64,000 bases of DNA from Favolaschia claudopus (lineage: Eukaryota; Basidiomycota; Agaricomycetes; Agaricales; Mycenaceae): contig JAWWNJ010000063.1 of the NCBI GenBank assembly GCA_037176885.1, forward strand, positions 434,001 to 498,000. Reading direction: 5' to 3'. The notes beneath the pieces are model-generated. The model was not told the origin of the DNA. It ran no database searches and saw nothing but the letters and a program-made list of their open reading frames with translations. Numbering within the stretch: position 1 is the first letter of the stretch; each line of letters begins with the position of its first letter. This document shows, one piece after another, positions 16,758 to 36,925 of the stretch. A program made the position numbers and the translations under genes.

Positions 16758-17230
16758 GGTTTGATATGGTTTAAATACATGTACAATGTGTACAATTACG
16801 AATTCAATGTCAACAGTGTTTTTCTGCTGTGGGATTCTATCTAAAACAATAAAGCGTCTGTCTAGAGAGACTAATTTCCGACGCCTATGCGAGAATCAGG
16901 GAGTAAAACTTTTACTTGGAAACAAATCCATAGAGCTTCGAAAAATCGAATGCGTTGAAGACGAGTGAAAGAAGATTTCAACCAGTTTGAATGCGAGCTA
17001 ATCCACACTGACAATAGGTTCTTCTCTGTTCTTCTTCAGCGCAACGAAAAATCTGAACAAAATATGTAGGTACTTACCTAATCTGTGGCTATGGCCGGGC
17101 ATTGCCGGGAAGAGCAAAGCGCGGTTGGGGTTAGGGTTGGGTTAGGTTCTTCCCTCAACTTCTCTTCCCTCCCGGCTCCGCTTCCCATACGCGTCATTAC
17201 TTTGCTGCTGGAACTGCTCTTAAAACTGGC
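16758..17230. other. Intergenic with telobox-like run
   Basis: No gene. A TTAGGG-like run (GGTTGGGGTTAGGGTTGG and GTTAGG, 17123-17147) lies 84 bp before the next start codon. Confidence 0.45.
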
Positions 17231-18648: not shown

Positions 18649-20446
18649 TGTAACGACTGGCCATTTTTGCGCGTTATATCTGGCTATTTTAAGTCAAGTG
18701 CGGCCCTAAACAACCCAACTACCCGCCACGACTATAGTCTTACTCGACTATCAATAGGAAGTCAGTACCTCTGTTGGTGACACTAAGGAGGGTCAAAGTG
18801 AGCTCCGAGCTGTTGACCGTAAAACCCATCACAGGAGAAAGGCATTATATTAATAGCCCACTGCAGTACTATGGATCTGTTCCATAACAGAACCCTCAGA
18901 AGAGTGACGAAGAGTCAAGTACTTGTGTACTACGGACTTAGACAAAGGTCTACGAGGATATAGGAGGCGCCGCGGGGGCTATCAGAGTCAACATCAGTCA
19001 AAAGACAGATGCCGCGGGCTGCCGACTATAAATAGACGGCTGGAACAGCGGAAAGGGATCTCATACAGGAGATGCCGATGCTAGGATCAGAAGGCAGAGT
19101 TATGGCAAGACATGAGGTCTTTGACAGGAGAGTTGATGATGTGATGCTGAAGCCGGACAAGTGCGGCAACTTCATTAGAAATCTATTTCTATATTGGAGT
19201 CAGCGCGGATGACTTGGTGGCTTGATAAATTGGACAACAGACGAGCCTGTGATATTGCGAGTGAATTGGAATGTCCCAAGAATAGTCTTAGGAGTTATTA
19301 GAGGCGTTGATGGCACCACCGGAAGGGTTGCCGCCAGTGACGGATTGACGGGATCACCAATGATGGCGTTCCGCGGGCTTCCGCAATTCAGTGATTCAAC
19401 CGTGAGAGTCATAATTGCTGACTTTCTACCGTTGGATCGACAAGCCAAGAGGCTGCCGAAGGTCCGCCGGGACACCCAAATACCAATATACCATCTCTCT
19501 ACTCAATTGGATCGACATTGCTTACTCTGTACTATTTATGTGATGTATTTCTTGGCATTAGTATAAAAGGACCTGTATTTCTCGTTGAGCTAGAGGACAT
19601 CGCGCTCAGTCTATTGGACAGCGTTGGTGAACTCAGGCAGCAACGTAGAGGCATATATAAAGATATTGTCTACTCGTTTGTCTTAATAGAAATTGTGTTG
19701 AAGTTCAGTTCAAGTGTGAATCTAAGCATTGTTTCGAGAGTGTTCACCCGCGGAGGCTTTGCATTCGAGTAGCTTTGTCGTGGCCCTAGTGTGCAAGGAA
19801 CTGCCTGCCTCTACTGCCCGCGGACTGTCTATTTCGTTGTAAGGATACGTGTGCTCGAGAGTGAACTAGTATCTCCCTGAGTCTGAGGAAGAGTGGAACT
19901 GTCCATCTGCTGAAGCATTGCGTTGGGACTGCTGGCGCATAACCGGAAGAGATCTGATTAGTCCTCGTCTGAAAGGCTTGTGCTATATAAAGGAGTGTCA
20001 AAGGTTCCTGGAATTTGGAGGTTCAGGTCTATAGCGTAACTGGCGCTATAAGAATTGTGCATTCTGCCGCGGAAACTGTCTGTGGCCATTGTTTCAATCT
20101 CGCCCTGATATTCAACTGCGTTGGGTATCTTGTATCCTACCGTTTATAGTTCCTATTATTAAGGAAAGGTCCGCGGACGGAATCACTTCCATCTACGGTG
20201 TGTGAGAGCGTGTTTTGTGCAAGGTTCTTACTTGCAAGTCGACTTATATCCTCGTCACTGTGACATCTGGATTTCGGATCGAACCCCACGAACTCTTCGA
20301 GAGACATTTGAGTGTATCTTGTGGAGATATTTGTGTTGTAGTGTTGTGTGTGTTGGTTGATTGTGTTATATATATTTTTTGGTGGTAGATTCTCTGCTGC
20401 GCTATATTTAGCACTTCAGTTGATATATTCAAGTGTCAGCGTTACA
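18649..20446 (+). repeat. 5' LTR
   Basis: Begins TGTAACGACTGG and ends CAGCGTTACA. It repeats at 34879-36676 with an offset of 16230. A TATATAAA box at 19984-19991 and GTATAAAAGG at 19561-19570 are candidate core promoters. It contains seven CCGCGG sites. The small frames inside are identical in both LTRs only because the LTRs are. Confidence 0.95.
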
Positions 20447-20448
20447 TC

Positions 20449-20466
20449 TGGAGCCCACCGCGAGGG
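20449..20466 (+). other. Primer binding site
   Basis: TGGAGCCCACCGCGAGGG starts two bases after the 5' LTR. Its complement has the form of a tRNA 3' end: CCA, discriminator T, a 7-base acceptor strand GGTGGGC and a 5-base T-stem strand CTCGC. The tRNA identity was not assigned. Confidence 0.75.
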
Positions 20467-20540
20467 GTTCGGTGGTAATTTGTTGATAAACAAAACGCGT
20501 TGCTGTAGTTGGGAGAGTCTAGAGAAGGGACTTTCCTGGG

Positions 20541-22409
20541 TTGTCGAGAATTCCAGCCCAAACAAATCCTCGTACTAGAAAGACGTCGAGGAGAGGCAGA
20601 CACCAGCGTAGCCCGTCTCCATTAAATACAGGAGCAGGTGCCAGGAGTTTGCTAGAGCAAGCCAGGGTTGCACTACAAGAACCCGCTCAAACGTCGACTT
20701 CAAGGAACAGTCTTATACCCGAGTCTGTAAATTGGGGACCCTCGACGTCTGGCAGAAAACCGCGTACGACCAAAAATTCCAGTACAGGACGGTCGTCTAG
20801 TTCGTCACCAGTTAAGAAGAGAAGGAGAGCGCGTTCCGCGGAAGTTATAAATACTTCTGCAGCATTACCCTTTGAGGGACACGCAACCCACTCGGACGGC
20901 GAGCTATCTGATCATTTGAATCAGACCATCGAGGCTATTTCGAACTCCGTAGCCAAGATAAACCCCCCACAAACAAACACTATGGCTACCTACGACGAGA
21001 TTGATAAGAGCAAGATCCCGGATATTTTTGGGAGACATAACCTGAAATTCGATGACGAAACAGGGGATTTGCCCAAGTATTTGGAAGGGATCGAAGATAT
21101 CATCGCGAAGCAAGGAAAGCTTAGTGAGCAGAGTAAGAAGTGGATAGCACACCACTATGCGAACAGTAAAGTGCAGAAAGAATGGCAGGCTTTGCCCACC
21201 TATACGAACGGAACGTATGAGGAATGGAAGGCGGAATTGATGGATGCTTATCCTGAAGTTCGTGCAGTAGAGAAAGGTTCCCGCGCGGGCTGGGCATCTT
21301 TCTTGAAACAGTATACAGACCGTCCGGTGAGAATAGACGAGGAAGTTGAATTTGCCAACTATTGTCGAAAGTTCCGCGGACGAGTTGCAGTGATGAACAA
21401 GGACCGAGAGATGCTCTCAAGGCGCGAGTTGGCGCAAGACTTTTTGAAAGGTATTCACCCTACCTTCAGGGAGACTCTTCGCAATATTGTGCTAGCCAGA
21501 AGTCCGACGGAACTTACTTCGTATCAGCGAGCAAAATCTGAATATGAAGCGCTGCCTGCGAACAAAGGAAAGGCCTATAAACCGGCCTACACTCATCCTG
21601 ATGACCTGTACGAATGGGCAGACTTTGAGGAAATATTGAAGTCGTTGATCAAAAGTAATGACTCTATTTTCTTCACAACTCCCTCGGATACAAAGAGGAA
21701 GGCTGTTCTATTTTCGGGTAGTTCAGAGGGTGGAGATGAAGCTGCCAAGTTGAAGGCTAGATTGGAGAAGCTTGAGGCTGATTCCAAAGCCAGAGAGGAG
21801 AAAATTCTCCAGTCGAATAAGGAGATTGAGGACAAAATGGAAAAGACCCTTGCCAATCATCTGGACAAGTTTACGACGGACCAAAAACAGGTCATGTCCA
21901 AGATGCATGAAGCCTTGACAAAGGGGACCTCCAATTATCCTAGTCGTCCTGTGGAAAGAAGAGAATACGGGCCAGAAAGGTCATCGTATACACCGGATAG
22001 GCCGCCTCTTAGAGAAGGCAAGCCTACGGGCTGTTACTATTGTTGGGATCCTTCGCATTATGTTGCGGACTGCAAGCACAGAAGGGATGATATTACTGGG
22101 GGCCTGCTAATCCTGAAAGATGGGCGTATGTTCTTCTATGATGGAAAGGCGCTGCCGCGGGAACCCAAGAATAAGAGCTACATGACCAAAGTGCGGGATT
22201 ACTATAACAATCGTACTCAGGTGTATTATAACCAAGAGGCGTTTGAGTATTATTACGCTAGTGACCCTACTGCACCGTCCGCGGAGTCGTTTGCGAGTGA
22301 ATCCAGGGAAGAGTCAGACTCTCCTGCCACCGCGGATAGACTGGACAGAATCGAGGAGTCTGTTGCAAAGATAGCGCAGTTTATGGCGGCTCAGAAGGAT
22401 TTTCAGTGA
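20541..22409 (+). CDS. gag: Gag-like protein of the LTR element
   Basis: The frame is open from 20523 to the TGA at 22407-22409, but the first ATG in it is at 20982 (MATYDEIDKSKIPDIFGRHN). Translation may start there, at a non-AUG codon, or through a spliced leader. The upstream part is Ser/Arg/Lys-rich (SPVKKRRRARS). The capsid-like core includes WIAHHYANSKVQKEW, YEEWKAELMDAYPEV and RELAQDFLKGIHPTF. A coiled-coil stretch (AAKLKARLEKLEADSKAREE) leads to a CCHC zinc knuckle, CYYCWDPSHYVADC (CX2CX4HX4C), that would bind the genomic RNA. The protein would form the virus-like particle. It is followed, 5 bases after the stop, by the ATG of the next frame. Confidence 0.88.
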   Translation: MSRIPAQTNPRTRKTSRRGRHQRSPSPLNTGAGARSLLEQARVALQEPAQTSTSRNSLIPESVNWGPSTSGRKPRTTKNSSTGRSSSSSPVKKRRRARSAEVINTSAALPFEGHATHSDGELSDHLNQTIEAISNSVAKINPPQTNTMATYDEIDKSKIPDIFGRHNLKFDDETGDLPKYLEGIEDIIAKQGKLSEQSKKWIAHHYANSKVQKEWQALPTYTNGTYEEWKAELMDAYPEVRAVEKGSRAGWASFLKQYTDRPVRIDEEVEFANYCRKFRGRVAVMNKDREMLSRRELAQDFLKGIHPTFRETLRNIVLARSPTELTSYQRAKSEYEALPANKGKAYKPAYTHPDDLYEWADFEEILKSLIKSNDSIFFTTPSDTKRKAVLFSGSSEGGDEAAKLKARLEKLEADSKAREEKILQSNKEIEDKMEKTLANHLDKFTTDQKQVMSKMHEALTKGTSNYPSRPVERREYGPERSSYTPDRPPLREGKPTGCYYCWDPSHYVADCKHRRDDITGGLLILKDGRMFFYDGKALPREPKNKSYMTKVRDYYNNRTQVYYNQEAFEYYYASDPTAPSAESFASESREESDSPATADRLDRIEESVAKIAQFMAAQKDFQ

Positions 22410-22414
22410 TTCCG

Positions 22415-23791
22415 ATGAGGGAGACTCGCTCGCGGAAAGCTCCTGAGGATCCGAAAGCCAAAGACCGCGTTCCAGAAAAACAGAAAAACCAACAAAAAGA
22501 TACAGTAGCCGAGAAAGATAATGGGAAAGAGCCCATTAAGCCTGCAAGAGAGCATAGAGTTGAAGTGTTGATACCAAAGCGTGTTCCTCAACCTGCGAGG
22601 AAAGTCACCGTTGAAGAAGTCAGTGATTCTGAGGACGAGTCGGTTGAGGTCAGAAGGAAGAAAAGAGGAGAAGAACTTCCGTTCAAGGATGTGAAACCTC
22701 TGTCCGACCCTCCCGTACGACCCGCGTTCCCGCGAAAACCAGCAGAGGAGCAACATGGCCAAGGGTCATCAGGTTCACGAAGAACAAGAGTGCCTAAAGA
22801 TACTCAGCGGCGAGACAAAGCTACCGCGGAGATCGCAGACGCTATTCGGGAAACTGTGATACCAGTCAAAATAGGCACATTGCTGGATAGTAACGAGATG
22901 CTCCGGAAAACTCTTGAGATTGGGGGTCCGCGGAAGAACAAAGCCAAATTCATGAAGACTACTTCTGGTGATATTGTTCCGAGCAAGGTGCACAATTTTG
23001 TCGTTCAACGGGTGCCTGAGGATGAAGACTCAGACTCTGAGAGCCCCGCGGATGCCGAGAGTGAAGCAGAGGATAACGTTCGAGTTGAGACAACCACTTG
23101 TGAAGTTGTAGATGATGATGGAAAGACTGTGTCGGTGTTGATGTTTGACACGTTCCCTGAATTGGTTACCTCCAATGATCATGATTTACCGGAGGGAAGC
23201 GTTATTTGTGGGGACCCTGTCCTCCAATACTATGAGTCTCTACCAGAGGGAGAAAAAGCGAAAGCTGTTAAAGTCCCGGCCGCGGGCTCCTCTGCGAAGC
23301 TCAGATGCATTCATCCGTCAGTGAATGGCAAGTATGTGGAAGCCATTACGGATAGCGGCTCGCAGATTGTATCAATGAATGCTCAGTTGGCCAAGGAAAT
23401 TGGTTTAACTTGGAATACAAATATAGTCTGTGAGATGGTTGCTGCGAATAGCCAGATTCAGTCCACTTTGGGCTTGGCTATAAATGTGCCGTTTAATTTT
23501 GAAGGGATAGTGATGCACCTTCAAGTTCATATTATTGATGAGGTGCCTTATGAAGTTCTCTTGGGACGCCCCTTCGAAATTTTGTCAGAAGCTGTGTTTG
23601 CGAGCAAGAGAACCGGCGAAGTCGAGATCACAATTACGGATCCGCGCTCAGGGAACAAAAATACCTTTGCAACCTCTCAGAGGGGGGTCAAGATAGATCG
23701 AGACACAGGAAAGCCAGTCCAGACAGCTCCCGCGGAGACCAAACCGGATTTTTGCAAGTCTTCGAGGAACTCAAAGATGGGGGAGAAGTAA
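22415..23791 (+). CDS. Retropepsin-containing protein of the LTR element (ORF2)
   Basis: About 458 codons in the -1 frame relative to gag; the ATG at 22415 lies 5 bases after the gag TGA. The N-terminal half is charged and disordered (KDRVPEKQKNQQKD, VEEVSDSEDESVEV). The C-terminal part is an aspartic protease domain: YVEAITDSGSQIVSMNAQLA with DSG in place of the commoner DTG, then VHIIDEVPYEVLLGRPFEIL with the conserved I(L)LGRP flap-end segment. It would process the Gag and Pol products. It ends with TAA 23789-23791, whose last A is the first base of the next ATG (TAATG). No canonical -1 slippery heptamer was found in the 69-base overlap with gag, so termination-reinitiation is the simpler reading. 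Confidence 0.85.
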   Translation: MRETRSRKAPEDPKAKDRVPEKQKNQQKDTVAEKDNGKEPIKPAREHRVEVLIPKRVPQPARKVTVEEVSDSEDESVEVRRKKRGEELPFKDVKPLSDPPVRPAFPRKPAEEQHGQGSSGSRRTRVPKDTQRRDKATAEIADAIRETVIPVKIGTLLDSNEMLRKTLEIGGPRKNKAKFMKTTSGDIVPSKVHNFVVQRVPEDEDSDSESPADAESEAEDNVRVETTTCEVVDDDGKTVSVLMFDTFPELVTSNDHDLPEGSVICGDPVLQYYESLPEGEKAKAVKVPAAGSSAKLRCIHPSVNGKYVEAITDSGSQIVSMNAQLAKEIGLTWNTNIVCEMVAANSQIQSTLGLAINVPFNFEGIVMHLQVHIIDEVPYEVLLGRPFEILSEAVFASKRTGEVEITITDPRSGNKNTFATSQRGVKIDRDTGKPVQTAPAETKPDFCKSSRNSKMGEK

Positions 23792-24327
23792 TGGCCGCGT
23801 TTGAGTACAACGACCATGGGGAGTTGGTGTGCACAGGATATGGTTTACCGAAAGACGGGGATGTTGTTACGCAGGATGACAGGACGATGGCATATTTATT
23901 GGCGTCTAGGGACGCATTTGCAGGAGATAAGAATGCTAGTGTATTGTTGAATCAATACGCGGGGCAGGTAGAGAAAGATAAAGGCACAGATGTCTTCTTG
24001 TTCACGGAATCTGGAAGCCCGGGAAGCCCGAGAAAATCGAACCGTGGAAAGCATGCACCTAATCCGGGTGATAGCTCGGCTAAGTCTGCGTTTGCCTACA
24101 TGGAGCGAGATTCCCGCGTGAATGATGATAAAGATAGTTCCGCGGAGGCGGCGGACCGTGCGCCGAAAGTGAACCGTAGAAAGCGAAAATACAAGAAGAA
24201 GAAGAAGAAGAAGAAGTCTAAGAAGACTTCGAAGGCAGAGGGAGCTAAGACAGTCCCTGCTGCGAAGGGGAAGCTGAATTTTGAAGTACCGGTGCCGGAA
24301 GTACCAAGAGAGCAATTTAATTTTTGA
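23791..24327 (+). CDS. Basic linker protein of the LTR element (ORF3), in frame with pol
   Basis: 178 residues, starting at the ATG that overlaps the ORF2 stop. The N-terminus is MAAFEYNDHGELVCTGYGLP. The middle is Ser/Lys-rich, and the C-terminus has a lysine run (NRRKRKYKKKKKKKKSKKTS) followed by FEVPVPEVPREQFNF. It has no domain I recognise; RNA or chromatin binding is plausible from the charge. The stop TGA (24325-24327) is the only codon separating it from the polymerase frame, which continues NLGISMGKQ in the same phase. The two frames may thus be joined by read-through. Confidence 0.75.
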   Translation: MAAFEYNDHGELVCTGYGLPKDGDVVTQDDRTMAYLLASRDAFAGDKNASVLLNQYAGQVEKDKGTDVFLFTESGSPGSPRKSNRGKHAPNPGDSSAKSAFAYMERDSRVNDDKDSSAEAADRAPKVNRRKRKYKKKKKKKKSKKTSKAEGAKTVPAAKGKLNFEVPVPEVPREQFNF

Positions 24328-24342
24328 AATTTGGGCATCTCT

Positions 24343-27300
24343 ATGGGAAAACAGCGAGTATTTGCTACTAAGAAGTACAAACCGGTCGCGGAAAAGATTA
24401 AGCCTATCCTTGGAAAAGTGGATGAGAAGTTCAGGATTGTGCGGAATATCACGGGGGATCCTTTGAAGGATATGCCAAAAATAGAAACGGATATTCCTGA
24501 GATTCACCCAGTAGGAAGATATACCGCGGAGCGAATGGAGGCATTTGAAAAGACTCATAACACTGGGTTCTTATTGCCTGAAGAGATGAAGTTGCTTCAT
24601 CATTTTATGATGTTGCATAACGAGCATTTCGCCTGGGAAGAGGATGAGCGTGGGCAATTCAAACATGAATATTTCCCGCCCGTTGATATGCCTGTGGTAC
24701 CACATACACCATGGGTATGCTCGCAAATTCCAATTCCGCCTGGACATTTTGAAGAGTTCTGCCGCATCATCAAGTCTAAATTAGATGCTGGGGTGTATGA
24801 ACCATCCAACTCGTCCTACAGGTCACCTATTTTTGCGGTGATAAAGAAAGATGGAAAGTCATTGAGAATTGTACACGCGTTAGAGAGGTTGAATGAGGTT
24901 ACAATTCAACACTCTGGGGTACCTCCAGCCACGGAGAAGCTAGCAGAACATTTTGCTGGTCGAGCGTGCGGAGCTTCGTTGGATATGTTTGTCGGATATG
25001 ATAACAGGGACTTAGCGGAATCTTCAAGGGATTATACGACCTTCCAGACGCCGTTTGGGGCACTGAGGTTAGTAAAATTACCGATGGGATGGACCAATTC
25101 TGTTCCCGTGTTTCACGAGGACGTTTGTACCATCTTGAGAGATGAAATGCCGCATGTAACAATCCCTTACATAGACGATGTACCTGTCCGCGGGGGACCT
25201 ACGAGGTACGAGACACAAGATGGCGACTGGGAAAGGATTGCTGCGAATCCTGGAATTAGAAGATTTATCTGGGAACATCTCGAGAATTTAAATCGAGTTG
25301 TGACTAGAATGGCTTACGCAGGAGGGACTTTTTCAGGGAAGAAGTTAGTCCTCTGTGCGGATGAGTTTGAAGTTGTGGGGCATATTTGCTCTTACCGCGG
25401 AAGAATTCCCGATCCTAAGAGGGTGGACGTTATTAATAACTGGGGTTCCTGTGACTCTTTCACGCAAGTGAAGGCGTACTTGGGCACGGTTGGTGTTCTG
25501 AGGAGCTTTATTGAAGGGTACGGCGACATTGTTGCACCTATCAATGAGTTAACGAAGAAGGACGTTCCCTTTGTATGGACCGCGGACTGTGATGAGGCGC
25601 AGGCCAAAATTAGAGAAAGGTTGAAAAACTGCCCAGCTCTAAAACCCCTGCGGTACGACTGGGATTCGGACATATTAATTCAAGTGGATACGTCATGGAG
25701 AGCTGTGGGAATTATTATCTACCAGCTAGACCCAGATGAGCCTAAGAAGAAATACTTTGCACGATTTGCGAGTATAACGTTAGGGAAGACCGAGGCGAAC
25801 TATTCGCAACCTAAACGAGAATTGTATGGGTTGATGAGAGCTCTAGAGGCCATGTATTATTGGATTTTCGGAGCAAGGAAGCTTGTGGTTGAAACCGACG
25901 CGTTATACATCAAGGGCATGTTGAAAAACCCTGGAATGGGCCCCAACGCCACGATTAACCGCTGGATTGAAAAGATCTTGATGTTCCATTTTAAGCTGAA
26001 GCATGTCCCTGGTGAAAAGTTTGCACCCGACGGGTTATCAAGGAGAGATCCTTTCCGTGGGGATGAACAATTCAAAAATTCGGAAGAGGGTTATGACCAA
26101 AATGAACCTCCCGAGGACCATGAGGACGTTTCCGCGGAAGGCCCACAGCCGTTGGAATTCGAGGACTTTAAACACCTTATTGATACCAGAGGTGGATATT
26201 TCCAGTCGGAGGAGGAACAGCCAGAAATGGTGGACGTGGATGCAGTTTGTACGGATGATTTCCAGCGTGATTGCGAGAGTGCCAGAATGACTGAAGCTAA
26301 TCTGGCGAGAGCACGCAGAGAAGCGTACTCGAAGGAGAATAAGCAGATCCCTGAGTATATTTTAATGACGGAGCCTCTGATTCCAAATTTAGAATTGAAA
26401 TGGGATGAGTCGAAGCGAGAGCCTTATGATGAAGAGCATCGTTCGGATTGGATGAAAAAGCGAGATGCTAAATTACCATTGGTAAAGGAATGGCTAGCGG
26501 ACCCTATGAAAAGGCCCGCGGGAATGAATGATGATGCAGAGTATAGAAGTTTTATGCGCTTCGCCTCACATTTCTTTTTGAAAGGGGGGAGGATGTATAA
26601 GAAATCTTTTGGCACTGCGAATCAATTAGTTGTTGACAAGGAACACCGCATGTACATGATGAAGGCTGCTCACGACAGTCTGGGTCACCGCGGAAGTTAT
26701 GCAACTAGAGAATTGATTACGCTGCGATTCTGGTGGCCAGGAATAGAAGCAGATGTATTTTGGTACATTGCGTCTTGCGACGCTTGCCAAAACCGGCAAC
26801 ATACACTGTTGAAAGTCCCGCCAGTTTTGACCCATACTCCAAGTCTATTTCAGGTCATCCATACCGATGTAATGGTAATGGGGCAAGTGTCCAATAAATG
26901 TGGACTAGTTGTTGATGCGAGGGACTCTTTGAGTTCCTGGTTAGAAGCGAGACCGCTTGTGAGAGACACGGCTCACGCAATTGGAATGTTCCTATTTGAA
27001 GAAATCATTTGCCGTTGGGGTTGCCCAAAGCAGATTGTAACGGATAATGCGGGGCAGTTCAAGAAAGCTGTGGAATGGTTGAAACAGAAATACGGAATAC
27101 CAAATATTCAGATTTCACCATACAACTCTCAAGCGAACGGGAAGATTGAAAGTGGACACTTCCAAATGCGTCAGGCATTGTTCAAAGCGACTGGCAAGAA
27201 TCCATCCAAATGGTTCTGGTTCTTCCATGTTATGCTTTGGTCAGACAGAGTAACGGTTAGAAAAGGATTAGGTTGTTCACCTTATTTTGCGGTGACTGGA

Positions 27301-28014
27301 GCGCATCCAATTCTACCGTTGGATATTGAGGAAGCTACTTGGTTGGTTGAAATACCAGGTCGAGTGTTGACGACCGCGGAACTGATAGGGCTAAGAGCCA
27401 GAGCTTTAGCAAAGCATGTTGCCCATGTTGAACACATGAGGAAGCGTGTAGATCATGCTAAAATGGTTCAAGTCCGTAAACTCGAACGGTACAATGAACA
27501 TACGATTAAAAACTATGATTTCAAACCGGGAGATCTGGTTCTCGTGCGCCACACTGAAGTGGAGAAGTCTCTGAACTCTAAGATGGATCAGAAGGGGAGA
27601 TACCTTGGCCCAATGGTTGTTATAAGACGTACCAAGGGAGGAGCGTATATCCTAGCTGAAATGAACGGCGCGTTATTCCATGACAGGATAGCCGCGGGGC
27701 GTGTGGTTCCATACTTAGCACGTCGCCGAATGCAAATTCCGCTCAACATCCAAAAGTTTATTGATGTATCTACGGAGACACTCGAAAAGCTAGTGGACGA
27801 TATTCCCGCGGAAGGGGAAAAGACAAAGGAGCACAGCTCAAAGAAGATAAAGGATCTAGCCTTCGATAAAGTAAATATAAGGGTAACACCTGAAGACTTC
27901 GAAAAGGCTGAGTCCTCAGAATCGGAGACTGGGAACGATGATGATGAAGCAGAGTCGGACGATGAGCCAAAAGAGTCGGTTGGTCCTAGACGGTCCAAAC
28001 GCAGGAAGCATTAA
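24343..28014 (+). CDS. pol: Pol polyprotein: reverse transcriptase, RNase H, integrase
   Basis: 1223 residues from ATG 24343. Reverse transcriptase: YEPSNSSYRSPIFAVIKKDG, RIVHALERLNEVT, TPFGALRLVKLPMGWTNSV, catalytic YIDDV. RNase H: ILIQVDTSWRAVGIIIYQLD, QPKRELYGLMRALEAM, LVVETDALYIKGML, FAPDGLSRRDP. Integrase: HHCC zinc domain (H-SLGHRGSYATREL...CDACQNRQ), then the core D,D-E residues in VIHTDVMVMG, QIVTDNAGQFKKAVEW and NGKIESGHF. The C-terminal domain is PGDLVLVRHTEVEKS with GRYLGPMVV, and an acidic tail ends PRRSKRRKH. The domain order RT-RH-IN defines Ty3/Gypsy. There is no protease here; it sits in ORF2. All catalytic residues seem intact. Confidence 0.95.
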   Translation: MGKQRVFATKKYKPVAEKIKPILGKVDEKFRIVRNITGDPLKDMPKIETDIPEIHPVGRYTAERMEAFEKTHNTGFLLPEEMKLLHHFMMLHNEHFAWEEDERGQFKHEYFPPVDMPVVPHTPWVCSQIPIPPGHFEEFCRIIKSKLDAGVYEPSNSSYRSPIFAVIKKDGKSLRIVHALERLNEVTIQHSGVPPATEKLAEHFAGRACGASLDMFVGYDNRDLAESSRDYTTFQTPFGALRLVKLPMGWTNSVPVFHEDVCTILRDEMPHVTIPYIDDVPVRGGPTRYETQDGDWERIAANPGIRRFIWEHLENLNRVVTRMAYAGGTFSGKKLVLCADEFEVVGHICSYRGRIPDPKRVDVINNWGSCDSFTQVKAYLGTVGVLRSFIEGYGDIVAPINELTKKDVPFVWTADCDEAQAKIRERLKNCPALKPLRYDWDSDILIQVDTSWRAVGIIIYQLDPDEPKKKYFARFASITLGKTEANYSQPKRELYGLMRALEAMYYWIFGARKLVVETDALYIKGMLKNPGMGPNATINRWIEKILMFHFKLKHVPGEKFAPDGLSRRDPFRGDEQFKNSEEGYDQNEPPEDHEDVSAEGPQPLEFEDFKHLIDTRGGYFQSEEEQPEMVDVDAVCTDDFQRDCESARMTEANLARARREAYSKENKQIPEYILMTEPLIPNLELKWDESKREPYDEEHRSDWMKKRDAKLPLVKEWLADPMKRPAGMNDDAEYRSFMRFASHFFLKGGRMYKKSFGTANQLVVDKEHRMYMMKAAHDSLGHRGSYATRELITLRFWWPGIEADVFWYIASCDACQNRQHTLLKVPPVLTHTPSLFQVIHTDVMVMGQVSNKCGLVVDARDSLSSWLEARPLVRDTAHAIGMFLFEEIICRWGCPKQIVTDNAGQFKKAVEWLKQKYGIPNIQISPYNSQANGKIESGHFQMRQALFKATGKNPSKWFWFFHVMLWSDRVTVRKGLGCSPYFAVTGAHPILPLDIEEATWLVEIPGRVLTTAELIGLRARALAKHVAHVEHMRKRVDHAKMVQVRKLERYNEHTIKNYDFKPGDLVLVRHTEVEKSLNSKMDQKGRYLGPMVVIRRTKGGAYILAEMNGALFHDRIAAGRVVPYLARRRMQIPLNIQKFIDVSTETLEKLVDDIPAEGEKTKEHSSKKIKDLAFDKVNIRVTPEDFEKAESSESETGNDDDEAESDDEPKESVGPRRSKRRKH

Positions 28015-28070
28015 AGATTGTGGTGGTATGCGCCTCTGTAATCTTAAATTAGAACTTCTCCGCGGAAGGA

Positions 28071-28814
28071 TTAAAATGGGAGATCGTACTTGTCAGGCGA
28101 TTCGACGGAGTGAATGGAGATGCCAGGAGGAAGGAGCTTGGACATACGAAGCTCGACGAAACCGAGAGCGGAGTTGTCGTAGCCGTGAAGGATGAGTTCC
28201 TTGCGCATGTAGGCGAGTTCATGAAGATCATCGATCTTGTTGACCGCTTTGATGAACTGGGCCTTGCGAGCCTTGATGGAAAACTCATGGTGGTAGGCGA
28301 AAGCTTCGTCAAGCTGGTTAAGCATGGTCTCCAGGTCGACGGTGCTGCGACCGAAGATGATAGCTGAAGGGGAGGATTAGCGAGGGATAAGTCTGGACAT
28401 CTATAAATGGACGCACCAGGACCTCCGCGCTTCTTCCAACTCTCAATCATCTTGTCCTTGCTGGTGAAGTCGCAAGGATGGAATTGAATAAGACAGTTGT
28501 GGCAAGGAGGACCCCAACTAGTAGGAGCGCAAGGCTCGACGTTGTGTTTCTTGGCGCAGCAAGAGCACTGTTCAGTCGGCTGGTGATAAAAATAGATCAG
28601 TCGAAGTTGAAAGTGACAAGTACTAGGGACGCACCTTGTTATCTTCCATAAGATAGATGGCAGCTTGAAACTTGGGAAGGATCTCGCTGACCGGGACTAT
28701 GATATCGCGTGCGAAGGCTGCGAGGACTGCGGCAGGATCCATTTCGTCGGGGCTGTCGTAGAGATAATCGTAGTAGTCGTCGTTCTCTTCGTCGTCTAAG
28801 CCGTGGATGCTCAT
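28071..28814 (-). CDS. Antisense gene B of the LTR element: double CX2C Cys-cluster protein
   Basis: Three exons in gene order, 28635-28814, 28417-28579 and 28071-28363, join in frame to 211 residues; donors are GTGCGTCC. The start MSIHGLDDEENDDYYDYLYD is acidic. Exon 2 carries CSCCAKKHNVEPC followed 8 residues later by CHNCLIQFHPC, that is CX2CX8CX8CX2CX6C. This is close to the spacing of fungal Zn2Cys6 clusters but lacks the usual basic Arg/Lys loop. The C-terminal third is helical and charged (LNQLDEAFAYHHEFSIKARK, VNKIDDLHELAYMRKEL). No family was recognised. Zinc binding is likely; nucleic acid or protein binding is inference. A TATTTAAAC stretch about 50 bp upstream may be its TATA element. 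Confidence 0.7.
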
Positions 28815-29422
28815 GCAAAGAGAAAGGAATATTATGGGAGAAGACGTTCCTATGAGGCACTGTTTAAATAGTAAACACTGCTGAGGAGATGTCTTGCCTG
28901 TGATTATTTGAATCAGATTTTGTATTGATCATAAGCGGGACGGAGGAAAGTAAAGGAGTGAGACTTGAAGTCTAGGCTTACCCAGACTTAGAGGCGCAAA
29001 ATATCCAGTGGGATAAGGACTTCAAGGAGCATGTAGGCGGTCACGGCAATGGTGTCGTTCACAAAACGGCTTCCGCGGCGGCTTGAAGTACTTGAGAAGT
29101 TGAAGTAGAACTGGACGATTGGAGTTCTATTTTTAGAATTCTGAGCGCGGAAAAAGAGTCTTACCACTCCTGAGATGTCCAAGATACTGCGGGAAATCGG
29201 ACGAAGTTGGCTTGACAAAACAATTGTATTGCAAGCACTGCTAAGTATATACGAGACACCCGGGGATTTGGACAGTTGCTGGTTGAACAGCAAATATGTG
29301 CGGTTGAACGCACGACGATACGATAGGGAACACTGAGAGTCGACGGTTTATGTGTCTAAAGAGCGAAGGCACATAGGTATATAAGCCGCGGAAGGACGAT
29401 CAAGTCTAGAAGGCGGAAAGGT

Positions 29423-31096
29423 TTAACTGGAGAGCTATAAAAATAAACGCAGAGACATACCGCGGAACTAGCAGGGCGCATAATGGGATCCTCGTTGTCG
29501 GCGTGATGGATCTTCATGAGCTGCTCGAGCTGGTCATCCATCTCCTCGTAGGCGCGAAGCCAGTAGCGATACTTGAAGGAAGCGAGGGCCATGTTGCGGC
29601 GGAGGTAGCGCTCCCGAGCCTTGAAACCTTGCGCGTCCAAGTGCTTGAGTTGGTTCTGAGAAACCTTCCAGGTCTTGTTGACATCGTCCGGATGCATGAT
29701 GGCGATGAGGTCCTTGTCCATGGAGTCTATAATAAAATTTAGACGAAATTAGATCAAGGAGAAGGTGAACTCGTACCAGGGACTTTGGGCTCGTAGTCGA
29801 GGTCGACGTCATCCGGTTCGGTACGGGCACGCTTGTTGCTGCGGTTGGACACAGGGTTCAACGACAAAGCAGGCTATGAGCGAGAATTAAGCAGAGAAAC
29901 AGAGTTGACGAATATTTCACGCACCATAAGTGGTTCCGCGGGCGCCATCTACAACAATTGATGAACGTTAAGCGAGAATTCAACCGTGGGATATGGGTTA
30001 CGTACCTTCTCGTCCTCGTCAGGACAAGTGGAAGATGTGTCGGAGTTCTTCGCCTTGGGGCCTTTGCCCTAATAAAACGATGTTATAAAAATAGAACAAA
30101 GTGAAAAGGCGAACGCACAGGAACTTTACGAACATTTTTGAACATGTCCTCTGGAACGGGATCGTCAATGATGCGCACGGATTTGCCGTCGTCTTGAGGA
30201 GCCTTACCGGCAGGGATACCGTCCTTGGGTTTGACAGGGCAGTTGTCCTGGCCGTGCTGGTGAGAAGAGCAAGACGAACAAACGGAAATCTGGGTGAATG
30301 AAGAGGAAAGTGCAGAGGGATAAAAATAGACGCACAGTGTCGTTCTTGACCTTGGGCGCACTATTCTTCTGGAAGGAGAGACCAGGGGGCAAAGAGGAGC
30401 CTCCTGCGCGATAGTTGGCTCCCATGGCAGCGATATAGAGAGGGTTGATTCTACCTTCGTCCTTGTCGAGATCCATCTGGAGTTGGTTAATACCGTAGAT
30501 AATCTTCGTAACGTCTGAGGAATACCTGATCAGCGACGGAAGCTTCCTCCGCGGAGTCGTCGTCCCCGGAATCGTCGATGACTTCAACAGACTTACCCTG
30601 CATTATAGAGGACAGTTCAGGACCAGGAGGCATGCGACGAACACGAGAAAGCACCTGTTGAACTTGAGCCTTAGCACGGTGGCCCTTAATGGCTGCCGCG
30701 GCCTTGTCGCGCTTGCTATTCTTGGCGTTGTGGTAGTTGTTGAGCATGCGGTCGATAGCGCCAAGCTGGGAAGTAGGGATCTTGAACTTGGAGATCTTGT
30801 ACTCGTCCCTCATAGCGTTGGAGGCGGCAGTAAGAGCATTGACGACCTTCTCGTTGGAGGGGTGCTGAAGGGACTGAGCGAATAGTTTGAAGTCCGACTA
30901 AAAATAGACAGAGTCAGCGCGGAAAGCGTTTGGGCATGCAAAAATATGGACGAACCGCCGCGGCTGCGAACGTGCTGAGCGTAGAGTGAATGACAGCCGC
31001 AGGGAGAGAGTCTCTGAGGGCGAGGACCCGTTGAAAGTCGCGTTCAGCTTCAAGGATAAGGTTGGACGCTTCGATGAGCGCAGAGCGTGGTGCCAT
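29423..31096 (-). CDS. Antisense gene A of the LTR element: CCHC-knuckle protein
   Basis: Nine exons join in frame (gene order 30956-31096, 30526-30897, 30336-30476, 30119-30289, 30006-30068, 29925-29948, 29777-29873, 29461-29726, 29423-29434) to about 428 residues. Introns are 49-60 bp in most cases and several begin GTGCGT. The N-terminus is helical (LIEASNLILEAERDFQRVLA). Two copies of a GKSV-x-x-IDD motif (GKSVEVIDDSGDDDSAEE and GKSVRIIDDPVPED) look like SUMO-interaction motifs. CSSCSSHQHGQDNC is a perfect CX2CX4HX4C knuckle. NRSNKRARTEPDDVD could be a nuclear signal, followed by a helical region RYLRRNMALASFKYRYWLRA. The last tiny exon is the weakest part. It has no recognised homologue family; a nuclear zinc-binding protein is inferred. 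CTATAAATTG about 60 bp upstream is a likely TATA box. Confidence 0.7.
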
Positions 31097-32117
31097 GGCA
31101 TGCGATGAAGGCCTGTAGGCGACGAAGAGATGAGCAGAGAACAGAAGTCAATTTATAGTTTTTTGACTATGACAGCTTGGTTAAATTATTAAGGACCGGC
31201 TACGATCGTAGAAACGAGCCAAGGCTGTTGGTTGCACCTCTAACTGAATTGAATATGCGAGGACGCATCTTTTTTCTTTAGTGAGGGGGAGACTATAGAG
31301 CAACAGACAACCGCGGGAGGGTATTGCGCCACCGCGGGCCTTGCAAATTTACCCATAAAGAGACAGGGAAATTTCGTTTTGCTAAAATTAGACGATTGGA
31401 GCTGGAGCGTTGCAAAAGCCAAGTTGCGGAAGAGTTTTAAGGCTGAATAATGTCGATCGGTTCCTATACGATCGATTTTAAGAGGCAGTTAGGGATGATA
31501 GTGGTTATTCTATTAAGCAAGAGGCTTGTGGAATATACATGCGGGAGTACAGAACTCTCCGCTGAGTATCTACCGCGGTACTTAAGAGAGAGAGTTTAAA
31601 CTGTGCTATAAATAGACCCGCGGAAAACTGAAAGAAGAGTTGACTAGAGGAAACTTTTTGACGACTTGAAGAAAAGTGTCAAATAAGTGTCAAGCGTGAC
31701 TTCTGGTTGAAGTACAGGAGAAATTGGACTGATTCCAATAGAAGTTGAAAAAGGGTTTTGACGATGGACTTGGTCAAAATTCAGTCTTCGGCAATCTCCG
31801 AAGGATTGATGACGGCATGATGGCCGGTTGATGTGGACTTGGTGGATTTCTTTAAGACCAAAAGTCTTACGAAAGCGTTCACACGGTTGAATCAAGACAT
31901 CAATAGGCGCCAGTGGGCGCTAGTGTATTGGACTCGAAGTAGCGGGTTTACAAACAAAGTAAACTAAAACTATGGCTACTGAGTCGAGCTATATACAGAG
32001 TGGTTTTTTTTTGAATTGGTCTACGATACGGCTGGAGACGACAGCACAACAAGATATTCGTAATGATCAAAGAAATAAGATATAGCAAGGAAAAAGTTCA
32101 GTGTACGGCACGAGCGT
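31097..32117. other. Non-coding spacer within the LTR element
   Basis: Separates antisense genes A and C. It holds no convincing frame, several CCGCGG sites (about 31311, 31332, 31572, 31618) and the upstream region of gene A. Confidence 0.5.
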
Positions 32118-34039
32118 TCATCCGCGATCAGCCCCCTTGCCTTTATCCACCTTGGGAGACTTCTCCACCTCCTTCCCTTTGCGCGGACTGGCGGAAGCGG
32201 AAGGGTGGGCCTTTGACGAACTGGAAGTTGGTGTCTCCAACAAAGGCGCCGGTCCAAACGTAGGCGGAGGGGTGGAAGGCTTGGCTGCCGAAGTAGAAGT
32301 CGCAGGGGCAAGCTTGGACGAAGAAGGCCCCGCGGCAGAAAGGTCGTCGAAAGAAGCAACAGGACCGAGTTGAGGGTCCACCGTCTTCAAAACGCCTTTG
32401 AGATCTAAGTCGGGAATGATGCGCGCGGAGAACTTGGGATGATACATATAGCTCTCGACGTCGCCCGCCTCGTTCGTTACCGGAATCGCGCTTGAAGTAG
32501 CCTCATGAGCAACGAAGTCTCGTTCCAGCTCGTAGAAGGGCTTCTTCGACAAGACATGCGCCACAAAATCGCGAGCAAGATCCGCGCCTTCTTTATCCAC
32601 AAAGAACTCGTCGAACTGCTCGACGGCGAGTGAACGCTCCGCACCGGAGATCGTGAGGGCGGAGTCTTGGGCTTGCAAACGGAGATTGTTGAGAGCGCGG
32701 ACGTGGGCAAAGCTAGTGAACTGCGCATCCTCGTATGCCTGCACAAGACGTTGAAGTGCGGCGGCGATGGTGTGGGGAGCGACAGCGATGAAAGGGCGCA
32801 TGCATTCGGCGAACCGTTTGAATTCGAGAGGCGTCCAGTTGTGGGAGCACTGGTGCTTGCGTTCCGCGCAACGAGTACAGACGGAAGAACGGCCTCCGAC
32901 GGGCCTGCACTCGGCGAAATTGAGGACGCAGTTCAGGCAGGGGAAGGCGATTTTGGACAACATCGGTGGTACCAGGGACGACTGGACGTAGGAAGTAGGA
33001 ATCTTCATATGTGCTGGCAAAGGCATGCCTGGAATAAGAAGATAAGCCACCGTATAAAGAAAGAAGGAACCTTCAGGCTTACCGGTCTCGGGAATATCAA
33101 AGAACATATTGATGAGCTGAGCGCGAGTGGTAATGTCGAAGACGGGCCCCATTGGGGTCGCAGAACGCTCAGACGCGGGAGCTGGAGTCGGCGAGCGCCC
33201 AGGTGAAGGAGAGATGGCCATGCGCGGACGTTTCGCAGGCGGCTCCTCGGCGTCTGAATCTTCGCTATCAGAGAAAACGGGAGCCCGGGGCTTTCGTGTA
33301 GGCACGGTGACAATGCTGGGGACGCAGAACCCCGCACCGTAATGCTTGCCTAGCGGGTCCGCGGCGAGAATGGTATCCTGGATTTCAGATGAGGGACGAA
33401 GATCGCGGTAGAGTGCGATCAACTCCTCCGCTGCGTCGACGTCGGGGATAGTTTTGGCGATATGGCGAGCAGCGCGAGCGAGGGCCCACAAGAATGCCTC
33501 CACATTCAACGGGATGTTGGGGTGTTCGCGACGATAAGGGGTCTAAAAGAAGAATAAGTATTGGATTAAAAGAAGAAAAGGAAAAAGACACGCACGAGGA
33601 CTGGTGTCAACAATGCTAAGCTACGGAGCTGCTCGACCGACGGCGGCGGCGGCTTGTGAATGAAAAGCGGAATCAGGTCGCGCGCGAAAGAATTGTCGAA
33701 TGGGGCCCAGAAGGCAGCAGAGGGGTCGTCCGAAGGAATCTGCGGTGGTGGTTCGAAAAGAGCTGTACGAGTAGAAGGGCCGGCGACGACGACAGGCTCC
33801 TCCGCGGGTGGAGACTTGATTTTGCGAGAAGAAGAAGGCGCGGGAGGCTCTGGGGTCGACGCCGCTGACTCTTCTGATTCGGGAAGGTCTGGCTCGACGT
33901 CCTTGGGGACGACGACGGAGGAACGGCCAGGGCCCACTTTAGCCCCGGCTTTAGTCTTGCGCGGACGCTTAGTGGAAGCCATGGTGGTCTTGCGGGTAGA
34001 GCGACGAGTTGGTTCAGAGGTACCCTTCTTGACGGGCAT
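32118..34039 (-). CDS. Antisense gene C of the LTR element: Zn2Cys6-like protein
   Basis: Two exons, 33596-34039 and 32118-33542, with a 53 bp intron starting GTGCGTGTC, give about 622 residues from ATG 34039 (MPVKKGTSEPTRRSTRKTT). The N-terminal part is basic, Ser/Pro-rich and acidic in turn; a nuclear signal PPAKRPRM follows VFSDSEDSDAEE. The central cluster is CLNCVLNFAEC, nine residues, then CTRCAERKHQC: CX2CX6CX9CX2CX6C, exactly the spacing of the fungal Gal4-type binuclear zinc cluster. The first loop lacks the usual RKxK basic stretch. After it come helices (QRLVQAYEDAQFTSFAHVRA) and a Ser/Pro-rich tail ending KVDKGKGADRG. Similar Cys-cluster genes are frequent in mushroom genomes and often sit in repeats. 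DNA binding is plausible, not shown. Confidence 0.78.
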
Positions 34040-34868
34040 AAGTCCGGCGACGAGCACCAGAGGAAAGCGGTTGTTGGGCGAGGATTGCAAAAAGAGTCCA
34101 AGAAGGAGGCTACTCGGCGACGTAAGCGTCGAGGAGCGTGTCGAAGGGCCAGGAGAATAACCAAGAAGACGGCCACAGGGTGTAAGACACTGTGTGTGGT
34201 GGTGGTGGAAGGAAGGAAGAAGTGGGCGCTAAGAGACGCACCCACTCAAGCTATAAGTCAGCGCGGACTTAGAGAAATTTTCTCTAAGTCGCCACGCCTT
34301 CAGAAGAACTGAATTGAAATCTCAGTGACTCACCTAGAAGGAAGCACAGAAGGTGAAAGTTAATCTAGGGCGCAGCCGCAGTAATTAGAAGCCAGTATTA
34401 AGGTTTGATGAAAACCTGAAGCTGATTGCCAGGGCAGAGGCGGCCGCGGCAAAAGATAAGTCGGAAGTTCAGATTAGATAAAGCGGAAGTGCAAACGCAC
34501 TTAGGATTAGGGTTGGTGGAGTCCAGGACGGCGAAAATTTGACCGAGTCGAAAAATATAAGGAAAAGAGGTGAAAGACCCCTGTCCGAATATTTCAGACA
34601 GAAAGTGTCAATGACGTCATATGCCGTAATGATTGGCGTCCGCGGAAGCAACTGTCTAAATTAACAGGCGGAACGTCTTAGCGAGTAGTGCAGAAGGACT
34701 TGACTAAAAACAAGTCGCTCGAGGAAAAAGGGACAGAAAAGTAGTTTGCAGTTGGTCTAAAAATAGACGTCCGCGGGAGTTGTCATCCTTGCGGTCCACT
34801 AGATTTAAAGCCAAAAATAAGCACGGATTTTGGTGCTGGCTATAGACCGAGGACGGTCTAGATTTAGT
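34040..34868. other. Non-coding region before the 3' LTR
   Basis: Promoter side of antisense gene C. It contains a TTAGGG-like motif (34505-34516) and CCGCGG sites at about 34444, 34640 and 34771. No gene seen. Confidence 0.45.
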
Positions 34869-34878
34869 GAAGGGGAGA
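34869..34878 (+). other. Polypurine tract
   Basis: GAAGGGGAGA directly abuts the first base of the 3' LTR, the normal place of the plus-strand primer. Confidence 0.8.
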
Positions 34879-36676
34879 TGTAACGACTGGCCATTTTTGC
34901 GCGTTATATCTGGCTATTTTAAGTCAAGTGCGGCCCTAAACAACCCAACTACCCGCCACGACTATAGTCTTACTCGACTATCAATAGGAAGTCAGTACCT
35001 CTGTTGGTGACACTAAGGAGGGTCAAAGTGAGCTCCGAGCTGTTGACCGTAAAACCCATCACAGGAGAAAGGCATTATATTAATAGCCCACTGCAGTACT
35101 ATGGATCTGTTCCATAACAGAACCCTCAGAAGAGTGACGAAGAGTCAAGTACTTGTGTACTACGGACTTAGACAAAGGTCTACGAGGATATAGGAGGCGC
35201 CGCGGGGGCTATCAGAGTCAACATCAGTCAAAAGACAGATGCCGCGGGCTGCCGACTATAAATAGACGGCTGGAACAGCGGAAAGGGATCTCATACAGGA
35301 GATGCCGATGCTAGGATCAGAAGGCAGAGTTATGGCAAGACATGAGGTCTTTGACAGGAGAGTTGATGATGTGATGCTGAAGCCGGACAAGTGCGGCAAC
35401 TTCATTAGAAATCTATTTCTATATTGGAGTCAGCGCGGATGACTTGGTGGCTTGATAAATTGGACAACAGACGAGCCTGTGATATTGCGAGTGAATTGGA
35501 ATGTCCCAAGAATAGTCTTAGGAGTTATTAGAGGCGTTGATGGCACCACCGGAAGGGTTGCCGCCAGTGACGGATTGACGGGATCACCAATGATGGCGTT
35601 CCGCGGGCTTCCGCAATTCAGTGATTCAACCGTGAGAGTCATAATTGCTGACTTTCTACCGTTGGATCGACAAGCCAAGAGGCTGCCGAAGGTCCGCCGG
35701 GACACCCAAATACCAATATACCATCTCTCTACTCAATTGGATCGACATTGCTTACTCTGTACTATTTATGTGATGTATTTCTTGGCATTAGTATAAAAGG
35801 ACCTGTATTTCTCGTTGAGCTAGAGGACTTCGCGCTCAGTCTATTGGACAGCGTTGGTGAACTCAGGCAGCAACGTAGAGGCATATATAAAGATATTGTC
35901 TACTCGTTTGTCTTAATAGAAATTGTGTTGAAGTTCAGTTCAAGTGTGAATCTAAGCATTGTTTCGAGAGTGTTCACCCGCGGAGGCTTTGCATTCGAGT
36001 AGCTTTGTCGTGGCCCTAGTGTGCAAGGAACTGCCTGCCTCTACTGCCCGCGGACTGTCTATTTCGTTGTAAGGATACGTGTGCTCGAGAGTGAACTAGT
36101 ATCTCCCTGAGTCTGAGGAAGAGTGGAACTGTCCATCTGCTGAAGCATTGCGTTGGGACTGCTGGCGCATAACCGGAAGAGATCTGATTAGTCCTCGTCT
36201 GAAAGGCTTGTGCTATATAAAGGAGTGTCAAAGGTTCCTGGAATTTGGAGGTTCAGGTCTATAGCGTAACTGGCGCTATAAGAATTGTGCATTCTGCCGC
36301 GGAAACTGTCTGTGGCCATTGTTTCAATCTCGCCCTGATATTCAACTGCGTTGGGTATCTTGTATCCTACCGTTTATAGTTCCTATTATTAAGGAAAGGT
36401 CCGCGGACGGAATCACTTCCATCTACGGTGTGTGAGAGCGTGTTTTGTGCAAGGTTCTTACTTGCAAGTCGACTTATATCCTCGTCACTGTGACATCTGG
36501 ATTTCGGATCGAACCCCACGAACTCTTCGAGAGACATTTGAGTGTATCTTGTGGAGATATTTGTGTTGTAGTGTTGTGTGTGTTGGTTGATTGTGTTATA
36601 TATATTTTTTGGTGGTAGATTCTCTGCTGCGCTATATTTAGCACTTCAGTTGATATATTCAAGTGTCAGCGTTACA
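34879..36676 (+). repeat. 3' LTR
   Basis: Same length as the 5' LTR and identical apart from the one difference noticed, T at 35829 against A at 19599. Ends GTTACA, followed by the target-site copy ACGA. Confidence 0.95.
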
Positions 36677-36680: not shown

Positions 36681-36795
36681 TGTATCACCAAATACGTCGT
36701 CCTGTATATCAGAGAAGCACCCGATTTTCTCTCTATCTTGGCGATTGTCTACATGGTACAGACTCATGAGATTCTAGCCTTGAAGTGAGAAGAAC

Positions 36796-36808
36796 TAGGG
36801 TTAGGGTT
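36796..36808 (+). promoter_or_regulatory. Telobox-like motif
   Basis: TAGGGTTAGGGTT, 118 bp before the ATG of the disrupted F-box gene. Confidence 0.35.
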
Positions 36809-36925
36809 GACCGTCTTTTACCGCCACCTTCATCCTGTGAACACCGAATATCCTTCACAGTGACATATTGCCATAGAAGAGCCTCTACGCGCTTTCTCGA
36901 CATCTCACCTCGTCGTCGTACTCCC

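Follow-up and report, generated by a model that had tools for sequence, protein, structure and literature searches.

The 64-kb stretch of the Favolaschia claudopus genome analysed here (C63:434001-498000, in the following the window) contains a Ty3/Gypsy retrotransposon at positions 18,649-36,676, identified through protease, RNase H and integrase matches and a weaker match to reverse transcriptase (RT). The element is enclosed by long terminal repeats (LTR) and bordered on each side by the 4-bp sequence ACGA, the target-site duplication. Besides sense frames for a gag-like protein, a protease and pol, it carries two antisense genes, A and B (Table 1), and its commonest 6-mer is the palindrome CCGCGG. 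We lean towards the view that CCGCGG is a recognition word accumulated by the lineage of this element, and that its most likely reader would be the element's own antisense zinc-cluster protein.

Table 1. Features of the Ty3/Gypsy element in window coordinates (ORF, open reading frame).
Feature	Position	Strand	Details
5' LTR	18649..20446	+	TG..CA, 7 CCGCGG, 1798 bp, 1 mismatch to 3' LTR
CCGCGG sites, 53	18970..36406	.	spread across LTRs, leader, gag/PR/pol frames and antisense region
gag-like ORF	20523..22409	+	CCHC-type knuckle (by-eye reading), 5 CCGCGG
Aspartic protease (PR) ORF	22340..23791	+	PF13975 E 3e-7, 5 CCGCGG
pol ORF	24328..28014	+	RT, RNase H, integrase H2C2; 10 CCGCGG
Antisense gene A exon	28049..28696	-	six cysteines C-x2-C-x8-C-x8-C-x2-C-x6-C (by-eye count), first spacing non-canonical
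Antisense gene B	32118..34228	-	ORFs 32118-33542 and 33566-34228, one gene by comparison with P0001
Gene B Zn2Cys6-like cluster	32847..32939	-	C-x2-C-x6-C-x9-C-x2-C-x6-C, strict six-cysteine pattern
3' LTR	34879..36676	+	7 CCGCGG, direct repeat of 5' LTR

The pol frame matches PF17921 (integrase H2C2, 1.7e-16) and PF17917 (8.9e-13) in Pfam; its RVT_1 match (2.7e-4) lies under the cut-off. A stop closes the frame upstream of pol in the window copy, and a frame of 1486 amino acids is open in 34 of the 38 copies that were scored out of 2183 candidates in the genome (264.6 Mb, 460 contigs). The other 37 scored pol copies are 99% identical to that of the window, and a 36-base LTR probe found 211 places in the genome with up to three mismatches. 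Beyond the Favolaschia claudopus genome, searches of viral_contigs and genome_contigs revealed no DNA relatives. At the protein level pol has 1212 relatives, with a top identity of 72% among the best 120 of these 1212, and the gene B protein has five matches, all of them named Favolaschia claudopus. Nothing on this element was found in the literature searched, which does not exclude publication elsewhere.

CCGCGG in the window element

An exact count found 59 CCGCGG in the window, 53 of them within the element (seven in each LTR and 39 in the interior) and six in the remaining 46 kb, in agreement with the numbers that an earlier note on this DNA had obtained by eye. One LTR and the interior together (16,230 bases) contain 46 sites, where Markov models expect 3.1 (order 1), 4.2 (order 2), 13.3 (order 3) and 37 (order 4), the last figure being so high because order 4 absorbs the motif, its 5-mers being nearly all motif-derived. 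With the sites masked before fitting, 2.3-2.8 sites are expected at orders 1-3. The earlier note had named a missing excess over a Markov background as an outcome that would speak against its claim; the excess stands against both the low-order and the site-masked models. The 18 one-mismatch neighbours of CCGCGG are not enriched (65 observed, 66.5 expected), and away from the sites the ratio of observed to expected CpG is 0.98.

Twenty of the sites are located in the three main sense ORFs, with 2, 14 and 4 of them in codon phases 0, 1 and 2. The coding examples given in the earlier note (24523, 25393 and 22928) are correct and its statement that all three phases occur holds, with the qualification that phase 1 (nCC GCG Gnn) predominates. 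A synonymous-codon shuffle, which preserves the protein and the codon use, yielded 0.32, 0.63 and 0.70 sites for frames in which 5, 5 and 10 (pol) are present. On the basis of these shuffles, the masked Markov models and the CpG ratio we rejected codon use, depletion of CpG and low-order composition as the origin of the enrichment.

The sites are spaced more regularly than random (coefficient of variation 0.72, P 0.017), with one site per about 350 bp. Their density is 3.9 per kb in the LTR, 2.8 in sense coding DNA, 3.1 between 28.0 and 31.9 kb and 1.25 in the block containing gene B. No common sequence flanks the sites, save for a slight preference for A at their 3´ side, which is partly caused by codon phase 1 (nCC GCG GAn). 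A search for repeats in the element (minimum length 60, seed 14) found only the LTR, and CCGCGG is dispersed rather than tandem.

In the genome as a whole CCGCGG is not in excess, with 60,847 occurrences compared to 68,711 of the reversed-word control. The pol regions of four sister lineages (3 kb each, 55-60% identical to the window pol), which were found using the Mycena chlorophos pol as query, contain it 0, 2, 0 and 0 times, and five 3.5-kb stretches from other Gypsy lineages contain it 1, 1, 0, 1 and 1 times. Equal enrichment in elements lacking the antisense genes had been named as a further outcome that would contradict the claim; these five unrelated stretches are not enriched, their antisense genes having been checked within the stretches only. 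Enrichment of the strength found in the window was seen only in the window lineage.

Words of the sister families and variation among copies

Sister families contain words of their own. The C68 family, with a pol 57% identical to the window pol, has an element of about 14 kb between 1,329-bp repeats that are 100% identical. The top 6-mer of its pol stretch L040 is the palindrome TCGCGA (7 observed, 0.7 expected), which is again the top word in the next 7 kb (13 observed, 2.1 expected) and also in the 5´ part (10 observed, 0.87 expected), a region examined after the word had been fixed by the first two stretches. The three stretches (L040, L045 and L049) together contain 30 TCGCGA where 3.64 are expected; of the 30, one duplicates another in the second LTR, and about 1.1 kb between the stretches is not covered. 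For the C92 family (L041/L046) the top words are TCGCGG and CGCGGA in pol and, downstream of it, TCCGCG, the reverse complement of CGCGGA; read by eye, the sites have the form YCGCGGAAGC.

After codon alignment none of the ten window pol sites coincides with a site in a sister (7 or 8 of the ten are comparable, depending on the sister), and at agreeing or nearly agreeing residues (IRG/VRG, PAG, HRG, TAE) the sisters use different codons. The C68 and C92 families have three CGCG positions in common with each other, and thus their words are partly inherited. In the C60 family, TCGCGC/GCGCGA occurs 18 times (3.0 expected) in the antisense region downstream of pol (L047) and twice in its pol, and L048 contains TTGAAC 12 times (2.1 expected). 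A check of the 3-kb stretches with 60 simulations gave 1/60 for L040, 2/60 for L041 and 2/60 for L043; L042 (25/60), L038 (15/60) and L039 (7/60) were not significant. Since single 3-kb stretches can reach such P values by chance, the weight rests on replication over several stretches. For AAGGTT in L037 the simulations gave 0/60.

Copies of the window element were compared over a 6.7-kb stretch. In 28 oriented copies (30 loci minus L017 and L026, which have diverged or deleted left ends) the 114 site columns contain seven singletons and no shared variant, and the 6,570 other columns contain 360 singletons and 278 shared variants. Fisher's test gave P 0.021 (two-sided, ratio of shared to singleton variants) and P 0.0076 (one-sided, per column), a modest result in which related copies are not independent of each other. 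Singleton rates are similar, with 0.061 per site column and 0.055 elsewhere, and together with the absence of shared site variants this shows that the sites mutate normally after insertion and that their variants are not seen transmitted. When all 30 copies are taken, the sites have 25 singletons and 2 shared variants, with 1076 and 337 elsewhere. Concerning CpG, 19 singletons were found in 76 site-CpG columns and 117 in 620 other CpG columns of the 30 copies; the 28 copies have 7 in the 114 site columns and 57 in the 620 other CpG columns. The mutation pattern shows no clear sign of protection at site CpGs. Selection or spread at the level of DNA, which the earlier note had considered likely, is backed by the codon shuffles, the non-coinciding sister positions and the lack of shared site variants in the 28 copies.

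The locus L026 was considered as a diverged lineage with six sites in new places, and this was rejected because blastn identified its left part as LTR joined to pol by an internal deletion. As a deletion derivative (L026 1-1462, 5´ LTR fused straight to pol) it provides no evidence for independent site gain. At E 1e-10 blastn did not match the left end of L017 (1-557), possibly a truncation or a nested insertion, with any part of the window. A run of CCGCGG at G000:C1:23442-54299, with three LTR-probe matches about 16.2 and 13.4 kb apart, has the appearance of two element copies with a common LTR. On either side of the insertion in the window, open frames that look by eye like the F-box type are located (17135-18475 and 36770-37327).

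The antisense genes

Zn2Cys6 proteins (PF00172) have the cysteine spacing C-x2-C-x6-C-x5..12-C-x2-C-x6..8-C, and the clusters of window gene B and of L045 fit this pattern. A strict six-cysteine regular expression applied to all six frames matched once in the window element, once in L045 and once in each of L031-L034, and it found nothing in the 46 kb of window flanks or in L035-L043. In L046 a cluster begins as in L045, and a frame change of this copy then disrupts it; L047 contains two antisense six-cysteine clusters and L048 an antisense one.

Altogether 33 pols were scored for an antisense neighbour. The antisense protein of the C68 family is located about 0.5 kb downstream of pol in 13 of 13 members of its class, which was assigned by frame length, and relatives of this protein with 37-39% identity are located 3.7 kb downstream of pol in five of the six members of the C92 class. 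UniRef labels four of six relatives of the C68 antisense protein as Zn(2)-C6 (P0127, P0128, P0129 and P0131). Zn_clus is the best Pfam match for the L045 cluster (0.0077), P0127, P0128 and P0129 and the second match for P0131, all below the cut-off. The full-length P0001 has no Zn_clus match in Pfam, and a PDB search with the L047 cluster returned PUT3 at E 0.86, which is not significant. An AlphaFold model of P0003, a homolog of gene B, together with four relatives had a mean predicted local distance difference test score of 34 and was unusable. The families that support the zinc-cluster link are those of the window, C68 and C92.

The gene B block (window 31900-34300 and L031-L034) is sharply bounded, with 69-87% identity between copies inside the block and 96-99% in its flanks. 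Gene B is constrained: in six pairs the synonymous divergence (dS) is 0.6-2.0 and the ratio of nonsynonymous to synonymous divergence (dN/dS) is about 0.1, for a stretch that opens with about 12 codons which are probably intron. Apparently, these are old alleles of a constrained protein that have been exchanged as cassettes among near-identical backbones. CLNC[VI]LN[FY]AEC, which makes up the first half of the cluster, hardly varies among the five alleles (window and L031-L034).

Candidate readers of the word

Which protein reads the word, and with what effect, we infer from sequence. CCGCGG would have been gained via point substitution along the whole element. In CCGCGG two classical Zn2Cys6 half-sites, CCG and CGG, abut in everted orientation with zero spacer, and the C68 word TCGCGA has the same layout with another known half-site, TCG/CGA. 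The antisense protein would read the word of its own family and, at the site density observed, it could coat the element and thereby mark it as self. The most plausible effect would be that the DNA is kept open against silencing by the host, as VANC does for VANDAL; activation or restraint of transcription would be the second choice. A simple function as promoter is disfavoured by the regular array of sites across gene bodies.

Several observations weigh against this explanation. The cluster of gene B in the window matches Zn_clus at E 0.27, below the cut-off, and is without the basic residues that are typical of the class and present in L045; an hhalign comparison of the gene B profile with that of the sister gave a probability of 7%, yet with E 0.005 and aligned cysteines. 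The gene B block itself is not clearly enriched in CCGCGG (3 observed, 1.2 expected), and over all five alleles the numbers are few (13 observed, 5.1 expected). In a non-element stretch of the window CCTCCT is an extreme 6-mer (2.7e-9), thus order-1 P values of single stretches are not proof. CCGCGG is raised in the C92 family (11 observed, 2.1 expected over 10 kb), where it lies within the longer word of that family, showing that words overlap between families. In the sister families L042/L048 and L043/L047, which have six-cysteine clusters, no replicated word was found. The unrelated Gypsy pol stretches L035 and L036 (1-3501 each) are rich in CCGGAG/GCCGGA/CCGGAC, above the codon shuffles (GCCGGA in L035, 21 observed and 5.6 expected; CCGGAG in L036, 24 and 9.5), and therefore amplified words may not require a zinc-cluster gene; the CCGGA-type word is possibly another family word. 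The association with a Zn2Cys6-like protein proposed in the earlier note has gained from the C68 sister, in which TCGCGA and an antisense six-cysteine gene with relatives labelled Zn(2)-C6 occur together.

A host DNA-binding protein (a zinc-cluster activator, a CpG factor or an insulator factor) might read the word instead, each family having adapted to a different host factor for transcription or openness, which we regard as rather unlikely. Sites in the LTRs and throughout the element would be compatible with such a factor, and so would the CCGGAG-type words of L035 and L036, which have no six-cysteine cluster within their 3.5 kb each. Likewise, host zinc-cluster proteins of yeast bind a CCG/CGG word according to the part of the source used here (PMC11111045). 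However, 39 interior sites, many of them in coding frames, are not needed for promoter use, and the word differs among sister families of one host while the antisense gene travels along. Slightly less probable than a host factor is another product of the element, namely Gag, integrase or the gene A zinc protein instead of gene B, acting for instance in integration targeting or target immunity. Gene A has six cysteines, with a canonical cluster of similar make-up in L047, and gene B is highly variable among copies that have nearly the same set of CCGCGG outside the block. Gene A has, however, no Pfam match, Zn_clus included, and its cysteine spacing is non-canonical, and the near-invariance of the first half of the B cluster is what would be expected if this half contacted the same word in all five alleles.

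It is very unlikely that the word spreads without any benefit from binding, through an element or host nuclease or through conversion favouring the copies that bear it. The elements do seem to recombine, the gene B block differing among near-identical backbones, but the site flanks share no sequence, and thus no inserted unit was copied; moreover, cutting at a site normally erodes the target of a nuclease and does not amplify it. A bias in composition, codon use or mutation without any function is the least credible of all explanations considered. The order-4 expectation, the predominance of phase 1 in coding DNA and the extreme P values of simple-sequence 6-mers in unremarkable DNA of the flanks would speak for it, but they are opposed by the masked models, the one-mismatch neighbours, the pol shuffle, the counts in the sister pols and the site columns without a shared variant. 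Already disfavoured on these grounds, it would require a neutral process that generates one exact palindrome per family.

The observation reported in the earlier note is correct and goes beyond composition, and its interpretation as self-recognition is strengthened but unproven; overall, that interpretation is partly supported. More tentatively, giant Ty3/Gypsy elements that form a clade in fungi might combine an antisense Zn2Cys6-like protein with a palindrome private to the family, introduced by point substitution into LTRs, introns and coding frames alike. Protein and word would co-evolve (CCG|CGG here, TCG|CGA in the sister) and provide each family with an anti-silencing address; we put this somewhat below an even chance. 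If the word is indeed read by the antisense protein, self-recognition of the VANDAL style, with co-evolving protein and word, would have evolved anew in fungal LTR retrotransposons and with another protein class, and a transposon would be able to alter its reading frames in such a way that they contain a binding word for a protein. This would also help in understanding how such elements fill large genomes in fungi. The two sister words, CCGCGG and TCGCGA, differ only in the outer base on each side, which would make a zinc-cluster code directly addressable.

Comparable systems are found among VANDALs, which are Mutator-like DNA transposons, and among Zn2Cys6 proteins, to which AflR belongs. The VANC proteins of VANDAL21 and VANDAL6 in Arabidopsis are element-encoded and sequence-specific, bind their word, remove DNA methylation and act against silencing, and in the parts of the two reports drawn on here their words are described as mainly noncoding, often tandem repeats and in one orientation (PMC5735166, PMC10398659). 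As with VANDALs, a short word is dense in copies of the element itself and scarce in other elements (mildly raised in the C92 sister), and related families have different words, two other sister families here being without a replicated one. In contrast to these accounts, we deal with an LTR retrotransposon and with dispersed palindromes that include coding frames and form no tandem repeats, and the candidate reader is a zinc-cluster-like protein. The VANDAL precedent invoked in the earlier note is therefore apt as far as family-specific words are concerned, and does not extend to tandem repeats or a restriction to noncoding DNA. Fungal DNA transposons encoding TET/JBP are similar in that the carried gene may counter cytosine methylation; they differ in that this gene encodes an enzyme and, in the part of that source considered, no family-specific word is mentioned (PMC12730594).

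For the word itself, a likeness in layout is found in the target of the zinc-cluster proteins Pdr1/Pdr3, which bind the pleiotropic drug response element (PDRE) TCCGCGGA, two of which are described in the PDR5 promoter in the section of the paper used (PMC11111045). CCG abutting CGG is a zinc-cluster dimer target in both cases if our reading is correct, although the PDRE are host promoter elements and not part of a transposon. AflR, according to the excerpt consulted, binds TCGN5CGA (PMC4329819); it is a host regulator and its spacer is 5 instead of 0, but its TCG/CGA half-sites are those found in the TCGCGA of the C68 family.

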